From: Alphaproteobacteria bacterium
GTDB taxonomy: Bacteria; Pseudomonadota; Alphaproteobacteria; SMXP01
Assembly (NCBI GenBank): GCA_028285305.1
Contig: JANQPV010000077.1
Span: forward strand, 1-64,000
Length of the DNA: 64,000 nt
Direction of reading: 5' to 3'
Shown piece by piece: positions 1,949 through 27,501 of this stretch (its first letter is position 1; the number at the start of each line of letters is the position of its first letter). Below the pieces are notes generated by a model, which was given only the letters and a program-made list of their open reading frames with translations, was not told the DNA's origin and searched no databases. A program made the translations under genes and the position numbers.

Positions 1949-2920
1949 CTATTGTGTGTTTAAAGCTGGGTCGACGACGGGTGGCAAAACTTCAGGATAA
2001 GCAGGTGCCACGTCGTGCTTTACTGCCCACAAATACCAGTTGTCTACGGCCGTCCCTGTGAGGAGGATCCCTATTCCACCCGTCAACGGACACAGGACCG
2101 CAAACCACCACGCCCACCGGTGGATGGATTCCATGCTGGCATTGAACCCCATGGTCCAGCGCCAGAACAGTGCCGCGCGCTCCGATGCCGTTCCGCGATC
2201 CACGATTTGTTCGATTTCCCGGTCACCGCCAAAACGGCTTACTGCCAAGATCGTCGCGCCGTGCATCGCAAATAGAAGCGTTGATCCGTACAAAAAGACA
2301 ATCGAGAGACAGTGGAACGGATTATAAAACAAGTTTCCATATCGAATGGAGAACGCCGCCGTCCAATCGAGGTGAGGGAATATCCCAAACGGTACTGCTT
2401 CGCCCCAGCTTCCCATCATGATCGGGCGAATGAATCCCAAAACCAAATACAACCAGATAGCGGCCGCAAAGGCCCATGCCACATGGGTTCCCATTCCCAG
2501 AGCCACCGCGCGCTGGTAGGTGCGGACCCACCAGAGTATGATAGAGGCGGTCAGGAAGAACCCAGCCATGAGCCACCATCCGCCTTCGTTTAGTGGAGGA
2601 AAGCTCAAACCATAGGCCGGCGGAGGCGGTTCAAGAGCGAGCCAGGGCAACTGGCGAACGAACTCGACCGGATCCCAGTTCACGGACGCCCACATATTCA
2701 GGCCAATGATTTCTATGGCGACGAGACCAAAGACAATGGACAAAACACCAGTCCAGCCAAGATAGATCGGCCCCAACTGCGCGTTTCCGATCTTTCCCAG
2801 CCAATACTCGAATCCAGGTGTTCCAATCCGTTCACCTTGAGTATCGATAACATCCGAAACTCCAGCGTGAACGGGGGCTTTCAGCTGAACTCGTGTAAAA
2901 ATGTTCTGATAGTCCGTCAT
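1949..2920 (-). CDS. pufM: Photosynthetic reaction centre M subunit
   Basis: A 323-aa protein with five membrane helices, one of the two core subunits binding the bacteriochlorophyll special pair, bacteriopheophytin and quinones. Family landmarks are visible: the TGxxxW-type N-terminal region, [13 protein letters not shown], the NPFHCLSI helix with its special-pair histidine, [10 protein letters not shown] with an iron-ligand histidine, and [10 protein letters not shown] with a second one. Length is normal for PufM with a pufC partner. It follows pufL by 40 bp in the puf operon. Confidence 0.98.
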
Positions 2921-2960: not shown

Positions 2961-3785
2961 CTACGGCCAAATCGGTAGATCCAACCACCACGTCCACCAT
3001 TCGGGCCAGCCCTTGGTCCAGAACGGGCCACTAATCAGTATGCACACCGCACTCCAGAAACCGGCTGAAAGAGCCAAGAAGAGACCCAACCTGTGAATAC
3101 CCAAAGTGCCGATGGAATATCCGATCACGTCTCGAAAGAACGTATCCTCGTGTTCGGGTGACCGGACTGTTTGCCCCTTTTGGGGGTTTGTCGAGGAAAG
3201 GATCAGCGAGCCATGCAGCGCAAGTGCTAACGTCGTCGTAAAGAAGAACGTCACCGCCAGCATGTGGGCGGGATTATAGTGAAAGTGGAGATACTGGTAT
3301 CCGACATTGGACACCCAGTCTAAGTGACTGAATATACCGTATGGGAATCCATGTCCCCAAGCACCCAACAACAACGGCCGGAACACGACCAATGTTACAT
3401 AGGCAAAAATCGCAACACTGAACGCGAAAGGCACGTGATAACCAATCCCAAGCTTCCGGCAGATTTCAACCTCACGCAGAGCCCAAGATCCAAACGCGCC
3501 GATGGCGCAAATCGTGATCAATTGCCATAATCCGCCTTCCCTTAGCGGAGCGAACGCCAGTCCGTAAGACAAATCAGGCGGGGCAATGTTTATTTGCCAA
3601 ACGTTCCAGGTCGGCCCGATCGCGGCACCCCAAATGATCAGTGCCGTACCTAACGTGGCGAAAAATATGGTCGTGACACCAAAAAAGCCCACGTAGAACG
3701 GTCCAAACCAGAAATCGAAGAGATCTCCCCCGATTAGGGTGCCTCCACGAATCCTGTACTTTCTTTCAAAGCTCAACAGAGCCAT
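2961..3785 (-). CDS. pufL: Photosynthetic reaction centre L subunit
   Basis: A 274-aa, five-helix membrane protein that pairs with PufM to form the reaction-centre core. It opens with the family signature [20 protein letters not shown] and contains [16 protein letters not shown], the HYNPAHM segment that supplies the special-pair ligand, the [10 protein letters not shown] segment with an iron-site histidine, and [11 protein letters not shown]. Length is standard. A long inverted repeat precedes it in the pufA-pufL gap (3801-3872), probably setting the LH1 to reaction-centre mRNA ratio. Confidence 0.98.
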
Positions 3786-3800
3786 CGCCCGCTCCCATTC

Positions 3801-3872
3801 TCGATCAGCTCAAGCCGCTAACCCCACAGTACCTACGGCTGTCGTTTAACTTGGCAGAGCTGAGCTGATCGA
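3801..3872 (-). promoter_or_regulatory. Inverted repeat between pufA and pufL (mRNA stem-loop)
   Basis: Perfect 12-bp arms, TCGATCAGCTCA at 3801-3812 and TGAGCTGATCGA at 3861-3872, with a smaller nested hairpin (AGCCG 3813-3817 with CGGCT 3836-3840). It lies in the gap between pufA and pufL. In Rhodobacter, stem-loops at this same place protect the pufBA transcript from 3' decay so that LH1 is made in excess of reaction centre. The same role here is inferred from position. Confidence 0.7.
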
Positions 3873-3899
3873 CGTCAGAGTTAAGTCATGCCACCGGAG

Positions 3900-4085
3900 T
3901 TACCCGTCCCCTGGTAGCGGGGAGAATTGGGAAACAGCTCCCGGGGATGTACTTGGACCTTCCAGCCAATTGAAACGATCTGTGCTGAGCAGAATAAAGT
4001 GAATCAAGATAGCTAGAATGAATAAGAACGTGACCAATGCGACCAGCGTTCTGCGAGGATCAAAAAGAAGCCAAAGTCTCCACAT
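3900..4085 (-). CDS. pufA: LH1 antenna alpha polypeptide
   Basis: A 61-aa single-helix antenna protein starting [12 protein letters not shown], the classic LH1 alpha N-terminus. The bacteriochlorophyll ligand is His29 in ILIHFILL, and Trp40 in RFNWLEG sits where the hydrogen bond to the pigment acetyl group is made, so a normal LH1 near-infrared band is expected. It follows pufB by 12 bp and forms the ring around the reaction centre with PufB. Confidence 0.96.
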
Positions 4086-4097
4086 TTGATCAGCCTC

Positions 4098-4331
4098 CTA
4101 TCCAATAAAGGGAAGAACTTGCGAAAGTGCGAGCTGAGTATTCTCCATCAAAGAAGAGTACCCGCCTACTGGCGGTAACCACGGACGCCACATCCAAACA
4201 AGAACATGCGCGACAATTGCGATAACCGTAAATCCAATAAAACTCGTCATGAAGACGCTATGGAATTCCTTAGCTTCTTCGGGTGATAGGCCGGATAATG
4301 TCCCCGTACCTTGGTCTCCATCTAGTGCCAT
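4098..4331 (-). CDS. pufB: LH1 antenna beta polypeptide
   Basis: A 77-aa antenna protein, with an acidic N-terminus containing LSPEEAKEFHSVFMTSF (His24) and the transmembrane ligand His42 in IVAHVLVWMWRPW. The C-terminal tail after RPW is about 27 residues longer than in many LH1 beta chains. An AGGAG ribosome site precedes the ATG. It comes after pufQ and before pufA, the usual order. Confidence 0.96.
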   Translation of the reverse strand: MALDGDQGTGTLSGLSPEEAKEFHSVFMTSFIGFTVIAIVAHVLVWMWRPWLPPVGGYSSLMENTQLALSQVLPFIG

Positions 4332-4439
4332 TTTACTCTCCTTTCTGAGCGTTTAGCGGCGCAAACCCTCCCGGATCCGCCGAGGTGGTAGAGGGCACCT
4401 CCTCACCATATTTGCCGGATCAACCGGACAAATTCTCTG

Positions 4440-4679
4440 TCAGCCCATAAAAACATATGGGACAATCGTATCCGCGACTTCGTGCGCCTCATCGCTCAGC
4501 GATTTCTTCGAACGCTCCTGAATCGGAAAGTCATACCACTTCCATTTGAAGATGCGCCCGACGGCTGCGGTTAAGTAAAAAACGCTGAAGCACCACGCGT
4601 AAATCGTACGGTATTCCCACGACTCATTCTCTCGGGCATTCGACCGGGCGTGCTCGACTCTGTTTCGTTTTGTACGCAT
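4440..4679 (-). CDS. pufQ: PufQ-like bacteriochlorophyll/antenna assembly protein
   Basis: A 79-aa protein with one hydrophobic segment (about residues 25-42, IYAWCFSVFYLTAAVG) and a C-terminal SDEAHEVADTIVPYVFMG stretch. Family PufQ proteins share this plan: short basic N-terminus, one helix, and an EA-rich segment ending near PxxFM. Position between bchZ and pufB is diagnostic. PufQ is needed for normal bacteriochlorophyll delivery in Rhodobacter; its exact action is unsettled. The sequence match is weak, so the name rests largely on context. Confidence 0.75.
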   Translation of the reverse strand: MRTKRNRVEHARSNARENESWEYRTIYAWCFSVFYLTAAVGRIFKWKWYDFPIQERSKKSLSDEAHEVADTIVPYVFMG

Positions 4680-23371: not shown

Positions 23372-23911
23372 TCACTCTACAACAGCGCTCGATCTGGCCT
23401 CCGCAGTTTTACGATCAGATCCCGCGGCGCCCTCTCGCGCTGAGATGCGCATGATCCGCGGTCGCCAGACGCCTAACACGACATTTGCGATCGAGATCGC
23501 CATGACCACCCACAGTGTGCCCCATTCCATGGCATAGAGTGACTGGAGCGCGTCGGGGGGTGCTTCCCCGTTTGCGATTTTTCTTGCCATAGTGGCGGCA
23601 TATGCTGCCTTCGCGCTTACGATTGTCAGCACGCCCTTAAACATGAGGATGCCTGACAATGCCTTTATCCAAACCCACCCTCGGTCTTGGAATGGCTTAT
23701 GAACCATCATCGAAAGCAGACCCGAAATCAGCGCAATCGCAAGCGAGGGGAGCAGCACGTAATTGCTCAGCGCCTGGATCGAATGCCGCAAATCGGCGTA
23801 CGCCTCAGGCGTTTCCTGAGGCGCGACCACAAGGAGCATCATGTAACAGGCCAGACCGCCGATAAGACCGCCGGCAGCAACTGTATGACATATCTTCAGG
23901 GTTTTGCGCAT
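23372..23911 (-). CDS. DUF2269-type integral membrane protein
   Basis: A 179-aa protein with four hydrophobic segments (HTVAAGGLIGGLACYMMLLVV; YVLLPSLAIALISGLLSMM; IKALSGILMFKGVLTIVSA; LWVVMAISIANVVLGVW). Family members are small predicted membrane proteins of unknown function. The ATG at 23911 begins the homologous part; the frame is open further upstream but has no membrane character there. It lies 251 bp downstream of the deformylase-like gene, so it may or may not be in the puc operon. Confidence 0.7.
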   Translation of the reverse strand: MRKTLKICHTVAAGGLIGGLACYMMLLVVAPQETPEAYADLRHSIQALSNYVLLPSLAIALISGLLSMMVHKPFQDRGWVWIKALSGILMFKGVLTIVSAKAAYAATMARKIANGEAPPDALQSLYAMEWGTLWVVMAISIANVVLGVWRPRIMRISAREGAAGSDRKTAEARSSAVVE

Positions 23912-24162
23912 GGTCGGTCCCTTTGGTTGCGGTATGCTCGTCTTATAGCGCACTGTCCTTGATATCGAAAAGGGGCCCGATCGTTGAGCTTTTCGTGGCC
24001 CGCAGACATCGCGTGGTTCATTTCTCCCGCCGTCCGGATCGATGCGCTTTTGCCCATTTAGATACAAATCTTAAATGGTCGACCGCTTTGCACGCTTCAG
24101 AGAGAAGGCGCCGATCCCGCCCATTGGAGCACCATCAGCGGATGAGCGAGCCGGCCCCGGGT

Positions 24163-24678
24163 TCACGCGGACATTCTGCGCTGCGCATTCGATCTCGCCC
24201 TAAACTGCGCGCGAGTCCGCAGTCTACCGAACAGCGATAAGCGATCAATGAAGAGCTTTCCGACGAGGTGGTCCATTTCATGTTGCAAACACACCGCATC
24301 CATTCCGCATAACTCCCGTTCGAAAGTCTTCCCCAACCGATCTTGCGCGCGCACGCGAACTCGCGTCGCCCGAATGATGCTGCTCTTGATATCCGGCAGC
24401 GAAAGACAGCTTTCTTCAACGAAGCCCCACGTGTCCTTAAACAGGATTTCCGGATTGATGTAGACCTGTGGATTCGAACGATTCTCTGAGCGATCAATGA
24501 CCAAAACGGCGCGCCGGTCATCGATTTGCGGCGCCGACAAGGCGATTGCTGTCGTGTCGTAGAGTGTCTCGATAAGATCGTCGACAAGCCGGCCCAGACT
24601 TTCATCGAACTCCTTTACGTCTTCCGACTGTAGCCGCAGCCGCTGGTCCGGGTATTCAAGTATTTCCCGCCTCATCAC
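24163..24678 (-). CDS. Divergent peptide deformylase in the LH2 operon
   Basis: A 171-aa peptide deformylase family protein, which would remove the formyl group from nascent N-terminal methionine. Metal ligands are present: Cys91 in EESCLSLP and His133/His137 in QHEMDH, with catalytic Glu134. Two motifs are altered: the usual GxGLAAPQ is AIALSAPQ (residues 44-51) and EGCLS is ESCLS. Length is typical. The start overlaps the pucC stop by ATGA, so both are made together. Its divergence suggests a dedicated paralogue beside the housekeeping def, which is not in this window. Residual activity is uncertain. Confidence 0.8.
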   Translation of the reverse strand: MMRREILEYPDQRLRLQSEDVKEFDESLGRLVDDLIETLYDTTAIALSAPQIDDRRAVLVIDRSENRSNPQVYINPEILFKDTWGFVEESCLSLPDIKSSIIRATRVRVRAQDRLGKTFERELCGMDAVCLQHEMDHLVGKLFIDRLSLFGRLRTRAQFRARSNAQRRMSA

Positions 24679-26120
24679 TGCACCGCCTCTTCTTCCGCCG
24701 GCCGGGAGAGAGTCAAATGTGATGGGTTGTTATCCCTTCGTTTGCGGATCAACGGGAAGACGGCGGCGATCGTTACGAGAAGCAAGACAATCTCAAGCGT
24801 ATAGACAGTTATGTAACCGGTCGCGCCAATACTTCCGAGCCAAGCTTGCTCTGGGGAGAAAGTATTGACGAGATCGCGAATTGTACCGCTCAGCGCAATT
24901 CCAACGCCTGCCGCTGTCGCTTGCACCGCGCCCCAGGCGCCCAGAGCCAGACCTGCTTGCTCTTTGGGTGCATGCGACATGGTCGCCGTCAGTGTACTGT
25001 GCGCGAAGATGGCCGCTCCGAAACCGATAAGAAAGTTGCCAACGAGAAACGCTTCGGACAAGCCGAATGGAGCCGCGAGGATGACGAGCGCGAAAGCGGG
25101 CAGTCCAATGAGCGCACCGTGTTGCGCCGTACTATAGGCATTGCTTCCACGCCCCAGAAGATGAGAGGCAAAAACGAAGCCCACCAATCCACCAAGGGCA
25201 AACAGAGCCGTCAGCATGGTCGTTGCCGCAACCTCCCAGCCCAACACCTGACCACCGAAAGGTTCGAGCAAAACGTCCGCCATTCCGAAGGCCATGGTGC
25301 CGCAACCCACAACGACCAAGCGGCGCACGGTATGCTGGCCCTTACAGAATTGCGTCCAGGATTCCAGGAACGTGGGATCCGGTTGGCTCGGGGCGCGGTT
25401 TCGTAACGGCTGCCTCGTTTCCTGTTTCCACATCGCAACCGTATTCAATACAAGACATGCCAGAGCAGCACTTTGAATGACTTGAACCAAGCGCAGCGGA
25501 TTGAAGTCAGAGAGAGCAATACCAAAGATCACCGCACTAACCATCATGCCGACGAGCAACATGACGTACATCATTCCCACAACCTTCGGGTGGGATTCCG
25601 GGGGCGTCAGGTCTGTTGCCAGAGCCAAACCGGCCGTCTGCACGATATGTGCGCCTGCGCCAACAAGGAGGAATGCCAAAGCGGCGGACGAGTAACCCAA
25701 CCATATAGGAGCCGTATCCGCGTGGCCTTTCCCCGCAAGAACAAGCAGCGCCATGGGCATAATGGCATAGCCCCCGAATTGGCACAGAGTTCCCTTCCAG
25801 ATGAACGGCACCCGGCGCCACCCCAGTTCGCAGCGATGGGTGTCCGAGCGGTGGCCAATCAATGCGCGAAACGGGGCGAAGAGAAGAGGCAGGGAAATCA
25901 TAATGCCGACCACGGCGGCCGGCACCCCCATTTCAACGATCATCACTCTGTTCAGAGTCCCGACGAGCAGAACCAAGGTCATGCCCACAGATATCTGAAA
26001 CAGAGACAGCCTAATCAGCCGACTGAGGGGCAGGTCAGGTGTCGCCAAATCCGCGAATGGCCAATAGCGGGGGCCGAGAGAGTTCCACATCGAAATCATC
26101 TGATGTCGGATAGATTTCAT
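24675..26120 (-). CDS. pucC: PucC/LhaA family light-harvesting assembly transporter
   Basis: A 481-aa, twelve-helix major facilitator-like protein needed for LH assembly, thought to deliver bacteriochlorophyll to antenna polypeptides. Strong family segments are PFADLATPDLPLSRLIRLSLFQISVGM, GTLNRVMIVEMGVPA, APFRALIGHRSD and GWRRVPFIWKGTL. The ATG at 26120 is preceded by an AGG site; the longer frame to a GTG at 26168 adds residues not seen in relatives. Placement downstream of pucBA favours the LH2-specific PucC role over LhaA. Confidence 0.92.
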   Translation of the reverse strand: MKSIRHQMISMWNSLGPRYWPFADLATPDLPLSRLIRLSLFQISVGMTLVLLVGTLNRVMIVEMGVPAAVVGIMISLPLLFAPFRALIGHRSDTHRCELGWRRVPFIWKGTLCQFGGYAIMPMALLVLAGKGHADTAPIWLGYSSAALAFLLVGAGAHIVQTAGLALATDLTPPESHPKVVGMMYVMLLVGMMVSAVIFGIALSDFNPLRLVQVIQSAALACLVLNTVAMWKQETRQPLRNRAPSQPDPTFLESWTQFCKGQHTVRRLVVVGCGTMAFGMADVLLEPFGGQVLGWEVAATTMLTALFALGGLVGFVFASHLLGRGSNAYSTAQHGALIGLPAFALVILAAPFGLSEAFLVGNFLIGFGAAIFAHSTLTATMSHAPKEQAGLALGAWGAVQATAAGVGIALSGTIRDLVNTFSPEQAWLGSIGATGYITVYTLEIVLLLVTIAAVFPLIRKRRDNNPSHLTLSRPAEEEAVQ

Positions 26121-26205
26121 TTCCAACCTGCAGAGATCTGCGGCGGCGCCGAGAACCGCACCACGCACATGGTGATGTCAAACTCTTTGCGGCCTTTCTT
26201 TGGCT

Positions 26206-26943
26206 CTAGTCGTCCTTTGTCAACGTAGGCATGCCTAAGAGCGCGGACAAGGGGGCCGGGTTACGATAAAGAAGCGGAAAGCCGAAACTAGAATCCCACG
26301 AGCGTTTGGGCTTTGAGAGTGGAGCCATACCAAGCAGGGACGAAAGGGGCGCCGGATTCTTACTGAGTAAAGGCAGCCCAAAACTCGACTTCTTGCCCTT
26401 GGGAAACTCCGAGAGAGGTTTCATCCCGAGCATGGACGACAGGGGCGTTGGACTAGAGCTCAACATGCCCATGCCTAAACCCGAAGACAGACTCCATGAA
26501 GATTTAAGCAATTCCGTCGACGAAACGAATTTCGTGACAGCCGGAATGCCCAAAAAGTCAGAAAGAGGTGATGGGTCACGAAATGGCGGCGGCTGCAGGA
26601 TCTCACCTGCATTGCTCCGCATGATGCCCTGGATAGTTTGTGCACGACCAAAGGGAGCACTTGCCACAACAAGCGATTTTCCCTCGTTCAAAAGCCGTAA
26701 ACACGCAGCCGCGCTTCCGCTTGGTATCATATCGCCTTCAACGGCCGATTGAACTTCCGCTTGGCGATCGCGTTTCGGTTCTGCCGAAACCATACCAATG
26801 GTTTCATCACCTTCACCCGGGCTGCTTTGAGGGACGTCGCTGTCGGCAAGTAACTGAGCCTCACTGAACCCGGCGGCTGAAAGCGCTTCAACTGCGGCGC
26901 GCGCACTCTGTTGCGACTGATAGATGCCTACAACTCCGGACAT
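26206..26943 (-). CDS. LH2-operon protein with PLSxxLGM repeats
   Basis: A 245-aa protein of unknown function. Residues 1-118 form a compact N-terminal domain (VVGIYQSQQSARAAVEALSAAGFSEAQLL, later GKSLVVASAPFGRAQTIQGIMR) resembling small stress proteins of the GSP17M/YflT type. The rest is Ser/Pro/Leu-rich with four copies of a 15-residue motif: DPSPLSDFLGIPAVT (123), SPTPLSSMLGMKPLS (164), NPAPLSSLLGMAPLS (196) and NPAPLSALLGMPTLT (228). The last three are 32 residues apart, with FGLPLL-type spacers. The ATG at 26943 follows GAGGAGA. It lies between pucA and pucC, so an antenna-related role is inferred. Confidence 0.85.
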   Translation of the reverse strand: MSGVVGIYQSQQSARAAVEALSAAGFSEAQLLADSDVPQSSPGEGDETIGMVSAEPKRDRQAEVQSAVEGDMIPSGSAAACLRLLNEGKSLVVASAPFGRAQTIQGIMRSNAGEILQPPPFRDPSPLSDFLGIPAVTKFVSSTELLKSSWSLSSGLGMGMLSSSPTPLSSMLGMKPLSEFPKGKKSSFGLPLLSKNPAPLSSLLGMAPLSKPKRSWDSSFGFPLLYRNPAPLSALLGMPTLTKDD

Positions 26944-26980
26944 ACAATCTTCTCCTCGGTCCTTTTGCACGGTCGGACGC

Positions 26981-27002
26981 TGAGTGCGGCGAGCCGCACT
27001 CA
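26981..27002 (-). promoter_or_regulatory. Stem-loop downstream of pucA
   Basis: A perfect 9-bp stem (TGAGTGCGG/CCGCACTCA) closes a four-base loop, between pucA and the repeat-protein gene. There is no T-run after it on the minus strand, so it is more likely an mRNA-processing or stabilising hairpin than a terminator. It would help keep pucBA message in excess over the downstream genes. Confidence 0.6.
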
Positions 27003-27062: not shown

Positions 27063-27212
27063 TCAGCCTCCGCCCTGAATAAAAGCAGTGAACCAATCGG
27101 AATTTGATAGCACAGCAAAGTGTACAACAAGTGAGGTTATCGCGACGGCTCCCAAAAACAAGGGCAAGCCGACCGATGGATTAACAACACACCAAAGTCT
27201 ACCTTGATTCAT
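27063..27212 (-). CDS. pucA: LH2 antenna alpha polypeptide
   Basis: A 49-aa single-helix antenna protein that aligns without gaps with LH2 alpha chains: [20 protein letters not shown] followed by the helix with the B850-type ligand His31. The C-terminus is [10 protein letters not shown], giving Phe44 and Ile45 where B800-850 complexes have Tyr44 and Trp45. These residues hydrogen-bond the pigment acetyl groups; their loss is the mark of blue-shifted B800-820 (LH3) complexes. The retained Met1-Asn2-Gln3-Gly4 start matches chains whose formyl-Met ligates B800. It follows pucB by 14 bp with an AAGGAG ribosome site. Confidence 0.95.
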
Positions 27213-27226
27213 AACTTAAGCTCCTT

Positions 27227-27406
27227 TCAGCCGCCCCACGGCGTGAACGCATACACGAGAACGTGGGCAATTAACGATATGAAGAAAAACACACGTGTTC
27301 CGTCGATGATGTGTTTGTGGAGTTCTTCGGACTCTTTGATTGTTAGTCCCGTTGGCCAGATCCGGTCTGGATCGTCCAGATCTGCTGTCTGCGTTTCATG
27401 GGCCAT
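27227..27406 (-). CDS. pucB: LH2 antenna beta polypeptide
   Basis: A 59-aa antenna protein. The core ESEELHKHIIDGTRVFFF and LIAHVLVYAFTPW are the LH2 beta signature: His30 matches the B800-contact histidine and His48 is the B850-type ligand. AAGGAG lies ten bases before the ATG. It is the first gene of the puc operon, controlled by a PpsR-type operator about 80 bp upstream. Both puc genes are too short for most simple gene finders. Confidence 0.95.
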   Translation of the reverse strand: MAHETQTADLDDPDRIWPTGLTIKESEELHKHIIDGTRVFFFISLIAHVLVYAFTPWGG

Positions 27407-27483: not shown

Positions 27484-27501
27484 TGTCAAGCTAGCTTGAC
27501 A
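27484..27501 (-). promoter_or_regulatory. PpsR/CrtJ operator and -35 region of the puc operon
   Basis: TGTCAAGCTAGCTTGACA is a perfect 18-bp palindrome matching TGT-N12-ACA. On the minus strand its final TTGACA is a consensus -35, with a TAACCT -10-like hexamer after a 17-bp spacer. Repressor binding would cover the -35 box of pucB. Only one full site is visible here, unlike the pair at bchC. Confidence 0.8.

Follow-up and report, generated by a model that had tools for sequence, protein, structure and literature searches.

A family of proteins with 16-residue repeats tied to LH2 operons, including a candidate ribbon subunit of the LH2 ring

LH2 serves as a model for studies of energy transfer, and the long-standing assumption has been that it contains alpha and beta chains only. 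In R. capsulatus, the 14-kDa PucE is the gamma chain of B800-850; it co-purifies with B800-850 and stabilises it. The closest described system for our comparison is LH2-gamma of Rhodopseudomonas palustris (RPA1495; PDB 7ZCU, 7ZDI, 7ZE3, and 7ZE8), an extended ribbon that surrounds six of the nine alpha/beta pairs from the cytoplasmic outer face (PMC9618040). It comprises six 16-residue repeats, each serving one alpha/beta pair and one extra bacteriochlorophyll (BChl) with Ser as the ligand. The carboxylated alpha-Met1 of this LH2 touches gamma (alpha-Cxm1 to gamma-Leu95), and LH2-gamma was found by its authors only in Rhodopseudomonas (PMC9618040). Another small additional antenna polypeptide that alters LH properties is LH1-gamma of Blastochloris viridis (PMC10212510, PMC9788563). 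PucC is an LH assembly factor (PMC4949548), and the operon name pucBACDE comes from earlier work (PMC9231093).

We analyzed a window of 64,000 nucleotides, the whole stretch of DNA presented here, which carries an LH2 operon with an additional gene, referred to as X. The operon order is pucB-pucA-X-pucC-def with every gene on the minus strand; pucA and pucB lie 5' of X, and pucC lies 3'. The earlier note had placed an ORF with its own ribosome site at 26206-26943, between pucA and pucC. These coordinates were exact, the neighbors were identified by Pfam LHC and PUCC, and the ribosome site is the GAGGAG listed below. The start codon of X is the ATG at 26943 on the minus strand. Plus-strand coding at 26206-26943 was excluded, as that translation is riddled with stops.

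26206..26943, minus strand: CDS of X, repeat protein and LH2 ribbon candidate, 245 aa plus stop (ORF; about 40 homologues adjoining puc genes; dN/dS 0.095 for L036/L041)
26952..26957, minus strand: Shine-Dalgarno GAGGAG, 8 nt 5' of the X ATG (sequence)
27063..27212, minus strand: pucA, LH2 alpha (Pfam LHC; the closest solved chain is the LH2 B800-820 alpha 9dwz)
27227..27406, minus strand: pucB, LH2 beta (Pfam LHC)
24675..26168, minus strand: pucC (Pfam PUCC, 484 bits)

The C-terminal part of X carries seven hGhxxL cores (hydrophobic-G-hydrophobic-x-x-L) at residues 131, 156, 172, 188, 204, 220, and 236. The units below follow the register of these cores.

26209..26589, minus strand: C-terminal repeat region, residues 119-245, no regular secondary structure predicted (AlphaFold; lag-16/lag-32 excess)
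26530..26577, minus strand: 16-residue unit 1, core G131, DPSPLSDFLGIPAVTK
26455..26502, minus strand: 16-residue unit 2, core G156
26407..26454, minus strand: 16-residue unit 3, core G172, PTPLSSMLGMKPLSEF
26359..26406, minus strand: 16-residue unit 4, core G188
26311..26358, minus strand: 16-residue unit 5, core G204, PAPLSSLLGMAPLSKP
26263..26310, minus strand: 16-residue unit 6, core G220
26215..26262, minus strand: 16-residue unit 7, core G236, PAPLSALLGMPTLTKD

At lag 32, X shows 35 identities with itself, whereas 10,000 shuffles averaged 10.3 and never exceeded 22; at lag 16 it shows 28 (shuffle mean 12.1, maximum 27, also 10,000 shuffles). The basic period of X is 16, and 32 is a super-period of two alternating 16-residue units. 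A PLSxxLGM motif at residues 123, 164, 196, and 228, the last three copies following a strict 32-residue period, had been described before. All four positions are right, although the first copy ends in I and not in M; the 32-residue period is real, as the lag-32 excess indicates, but it is a double period in which the intervening 16-residue units had been missed. Of about 150 core spacings across the X family, 81 equal 16 exactly, and the unit consensus is PAPLSSLFGLPLLSKN. The Rhodobacteraceae members have longer units, with F-W-P-M core variants present.

Two loci carry unusual copies. In L157 (genome G708), a tandem X pair lies in one puc operon (3069-4178 and 2175-2858, minus strand), and the upstream copy, of about 345 aa, holds many HARMANWPIPLLSDRKP repeats of roughly 26 residues. 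In L034 (genome G151), X lies between two pucBA pairs (3846-4625, plus strand) and contains a run of HIFGEPKL-type short units at a spacing of 12.

X and LH2-gamma both carry tandem units of 16 residues built on a G-x-P-L-[LI] core; they are also alike in being extended (as predicted for X), in having no transmembrane helix, and in being tied to LH2. No transmembrane-like stretch was found over the whole X protein, the best 19-residue hydropathy being 0.93. The G cores of LH2-gamma are exactly 16 residues apart, and its core reads S-G-x-P-L-I-L. This comparable plan (PMC9618040) corrects the earlier note, which knew of no such antenna factor. The two proteins differ in size and domains, LH2-gamma having 97 aa, six units, and no N-terminal domain, whereas X has 245 aa, seven units, and an N-domain. 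LH2-gamma is slightly acidic, whereas the X repeats average a net charge of about +6, and LH2-gamma has been reported only from Rhodopseudomonas, whereas X occurs across several phyla. The Ser that ligates BChl in LH2-gamma stands just before the core G; in contrast, the X family has F, L, or I at this position (-1), and its Ser residues are enriched at -4 and -3 relative to the core G. Because the position of the gamma Ser ligand is not kept, pigment binding by X cannot be assumed. LH1-gamma of Blastochloris viridis is a subunit of LH1, not of LH2, and its architecture is unlike that of X.

For the comparison of the units, positions were permuted within 16-residue blocks, which keeps composition and periodicity. 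The X family scored against gamma with a mean of 6.16 bits, compared with a permutation maximum of 1.64 in 400 trials. The X of the window alone did less well against the permutations (p=0.035), and the best single family score, 19.5, was barely above the best permuted one, 19.3. When gamma was submitted against the whole genome G249, X was the best match (E=0.0065), which was true in only one of 12 LH2 genomes. Gamma was absent from the PDB matches of the 32-residue X unit profile at E<=10, and the Lhca2 match of this profile (E=0.92) is at chance level. A gamma search in the order of genome G178, a sample without a positive control, resulted in no match. On these comparisons, the units of X and gamma are of the same kind, by remote homology or by convergence. 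As the profile search gave no significant homology and the gamma Ser ligand is not kept in place, we do not claim membership of X in the gamma family.

We consider it probable, with some reserve, that X is an accessory LH2 subunit that wraps the ring. Its N-domain, small and folded, would stay at the cytoplasmic face, and its repeats would wrap the LH2 ring as an extended ribbon in the manner of LH2-gamma, with each unit serving one alpha/beta pair. In a nonamer with the gamma spacing, as assumed here, these seven units would suffice for about seven of the nine pairs. For X on the ring, we infer binding, geometry, stoichiometry, and pigments.

The protein family to which X belongs is widespread and undescribed. 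Beyond a sub-threshold YflT match, searches of Pfam and NCBIfam with X and 31 relatives yielded no model. A phmmer search of X against the PDB found no relative, its Yersinia chaperone matches (E>=0.34) being at chance level; several solved LH2 alpha chains resemble the pucA product of the window, which speaks against the ribbon insofar as those organisms encode X.

For the tie to LH2, a class sample of 385 genomes was searched with a five-row X profile. As a result, 13 genomes matched, nine of them with strong, full-length matches. The match in genome G099 is weak and carries one repeat; it adjoins pucBA on the opposite strand. The matches in genomes G049, G327, and G349 and in most of the G178 family covered only the N-domain, without repeats, and were not counted as X. 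PUCC identified 26 phototrophs in the sample, which LHC counts split into 11 with an LH2-type pair and 15 with LH1 only; genome G102 was scored as LH2 despite a single LHC pair in its assembly, as this pair is LH2-type and adjoins X. Repeat-bearing X was present in ten of the 11 LH2 genomes and in none of the 15 LH1-only phototrophs, and no repeat-bearing X was found in the non-phototrophs of the sample. The LH2 genome without X is G131, where no such gene is present in the pucBA-pucC operon.

A scan of 84,980 species provided 33 named X loci from Alphaproteobacteria, Gammaproteobacteria, Myxococcota, and Gemmatimonadota, nearly all of them metagenome assemblies. X is accompanied by adjacent pucBA and pucC genes in 30 of these loci; two of the three exceptions (L051 and L052) are cut by contig ends, and the third (L067) is a second copy in the same assembly as L058. 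The gene orders were B-A-X-C, X-B-A-C, and B-A-C-X. No X match was found on plasmids. The plasmid PucC matches whose surroundings were viewed were bch/puh-cluster paralogues, not LH2 operons, and were set aside. In L006 (genome G102), pucBA is flanked by X in convergent orientation on one side and by a divergent deformylase on the other; the synteny is loosened, with the genes still together. Across the class sample, the named loci, and the Rhodobacteraceae loci described below, the X gene, like gamma, is confined to LH2-bearing organisms. For the earlier note, matches lying mostly outside phototrophs or at a distance from puc genes would have been a refutation, and the opposite was found. Its proposal of repeats that may bind one antenna chain or pigment after another gains support from the LH2 confinement and the puc adjacency, and the binding itself is what we infer.

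The sample was taken as Rhodobacteraceae from a PucC-type protein that shares 71% identity with its Roseobacter litoralis counterpart. In this sample, 42 of 397 genomes matched the X profile at E<=0.01, and all 26 extended loci have the order pucB-pucA-pucC-X. Here X takes the slot of pucD and pucE directly 3' of pucC, whereas in the window X precedes pucC. X may therefore be the family of R. capsulatus PucE or PucD, a kind of protein already known from genetics and biochemistry in which only the repeat plan is new. The co-purification of PucE with B800-850 and its stabilizing effect point the same way; however, X members have 20-25 kDa or more, compared with the 14 kDa of PucE. We regard this identity as a serious possibility, short of probable; it is compatible with the ribbon and does not exclude it. 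It is also the main point on which the novelty of X turns.

The X protein is under constraint. Between L036 and L041, a close pair, dN/dS was 0.095 overall, 0.133 in the N-domain, and 0.067 in the repeats, and the repeats are the most constrained part of X in this pair. In two more distant pairs, the order was reversed, with stronger constraint on the N-domain than on the repeats.

Three further elements of the operon were located around these genes.

27484..27501, no strand assigned: TGTCAAGCTAGCTTGACA, PpsR/CrtJ-type box (TGTC-N10-GACA) over the -35 of a sigma70-like promoter 5' of pucB
26981..27002, minus strand: GC-rich hairpin with a 9-bp stem in the pucA-X spacer (fold z = -2.4)
24163..24678, minus strand: LH2-linked peptide deformylase, 4-nt overlap with pucC (Pfam Pep_deformylase; kept 3' of pucC in related puc loci)

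The window contains five TGTC-N10-GACA palindromes (9871, 17637, 18048, 27484, and 28054), whereas chance alone would give 1.1, and they are likely PpsR/CrtJ sites of the photosynthesis gene cluster. In puc operons, pucBA mRNA is held above the level of the distal genes, and the hairpin between pucA and X fits this expectation. The deformylase adjoins pucC in nearly 30 related puc loci (most of L033-L064, plus L089), and most copies have the motifs G/A-L-S-A-P-Q, E-E-S-C-L-S, and H-E-x-D-H. No deformylase was found at the LH2 locus of genomes G099 and G131. The puc-linked deformylases of eight other genomes are 59-69% identical to the copy in the window, compared with 30-47% for deformylases elsewhere in those genomes and in LH1-only phototrophs. 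By these identities, the puc-linked deformylases group as a distinct clade, apart from the remaining copies in their own genomes (about 30-42% identity). It is plausible that an LH2-dedicated deformylase acts on the N-terminal Met of LH2 alpha, because the carboxylated alpha-Met1 contacts gamma in the R. palustris LH2.

The main rival to the ribbon is that X is an assembly or stability factor of LH2, a scaffold or ruler that works with PucC and the deformylase, then leaves or stays in traces, and is not a pigment-binding subunit. X shares its operon with the deformylase and with pucC, whose product is an LH assembly factor (PMC4949548). The stable pucA-X hairpin is consistent with less X than alpha and beta; however, low expression is equally needed for one X per ring. 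Likewise, the Ser ligand of gamma is not conserved in place in X, but the conserved 16-residue register fits a periodic partner, such as the finished ring, and it is the repeats, not the N-domain, that are most constrained in the closest pair. We consider the assembly factor rather unlikely.

The N-terminal half of X forms a separate domain.

26590..26943, minus strand: N-terminal globular domain, residues 1-118, weakly YflT-like, ferredoxin-like topology predicted (Pfam YflT E=0.0088; AlphaFold; Foldseek)

In the AlphaFold model, pLDDT reaches about 90 or more at residues 1-30 and 61-120 and is low in a loop at about 40-60; residues 119-245 are predicted as extended with low confidence. X matched Pfam YflT (PF11181) with E=0.0088 and 17 bits, below the Pfam gathering cut-off of 26.2 bits, over X residues 4-31 and domain positions 2-29 of 99. 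Only three of 31 X relatives matched YflT at E<=0.01. The resemblance of the N-terminal half to small stress proteins, proposed earlier, thus holds for the N-terminus of the YflT domain and residues 4-31 only, at a sub-cut-off score. The YflT-like proteins seen outside LH2 genomes do not have the X repeats.

A further reading takes X as a tether or as a light- or stress-responsive linker, in which the YflT-like domain would act as a sensor or binding module while the repeats attach to LH2, organizing or uncoupling antenna arrays. Nearly all X members have the separate folded domain, related domains without repeats occur in genomes lacking LH2, and the topology of the N-domain resembles PII/CutA. 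However, the best Foldseek matches, to PII/CutA ferredoxin-like folds, are not significant (E>=0.24), and gamma functions without an N-terminal domain, so we hold this reading to be improbable. That X is a general stress protein placed in the puc operon by chance is hardly credible, as its weak YflT match is set against a distribution that already refutes it, with repeat-bearing X confined to LH2 carriers and X adjoining puc genes across Alphaproteobacteria, Gammaproteobacteria, Myxococcota, and Gemmatimonadota.

Returning to X as a ring-wrapping subunit, a broader picture can be drawn tentatively, and we give it clearly less credence than the wrapping itself. A pigment-holding, ring-wrapping ribbon would then be a regular component of LH2 among purple and related phototrophs (Alphaproteobacteria, Gammaproteobacteria, Myxococcota, and Gemmatimonadota) and not an oddity of Rhodopseudomonas. 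It might place up to seven or more extra bacteriochlorophylls in an arc, with a unit number tuned by lineage and a maturation aided by an LH2-dedicated deformylase. Should X represent a second ribbon family, and a widespread one, many LH2 rings would lack symmetry and contain more pigment than models suppose, and the repeat number would offer a genetic means of setting how many positions of the ring are filled. X provides a direct structural prediction, testable in cultivable Rhodobacteraceae.

Two minor observations concern the surroundings of X. The LH2 alpha chains of the X-bearing loci outside Rhodobacteraceae (window 27063-27212; L033-L065) mostly begin with MNQGRIWCVV, with Cys8 conserved, and the solved LH2 alpha 7ze3 has Thr where these chains have Cys8. 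After the deformylase, at 23372-24067 on the minus strand of the window, lies a membrane protein gene with DUF2269/UPF0093 similarity, which among the loci examined has a relative nearby only in L047.
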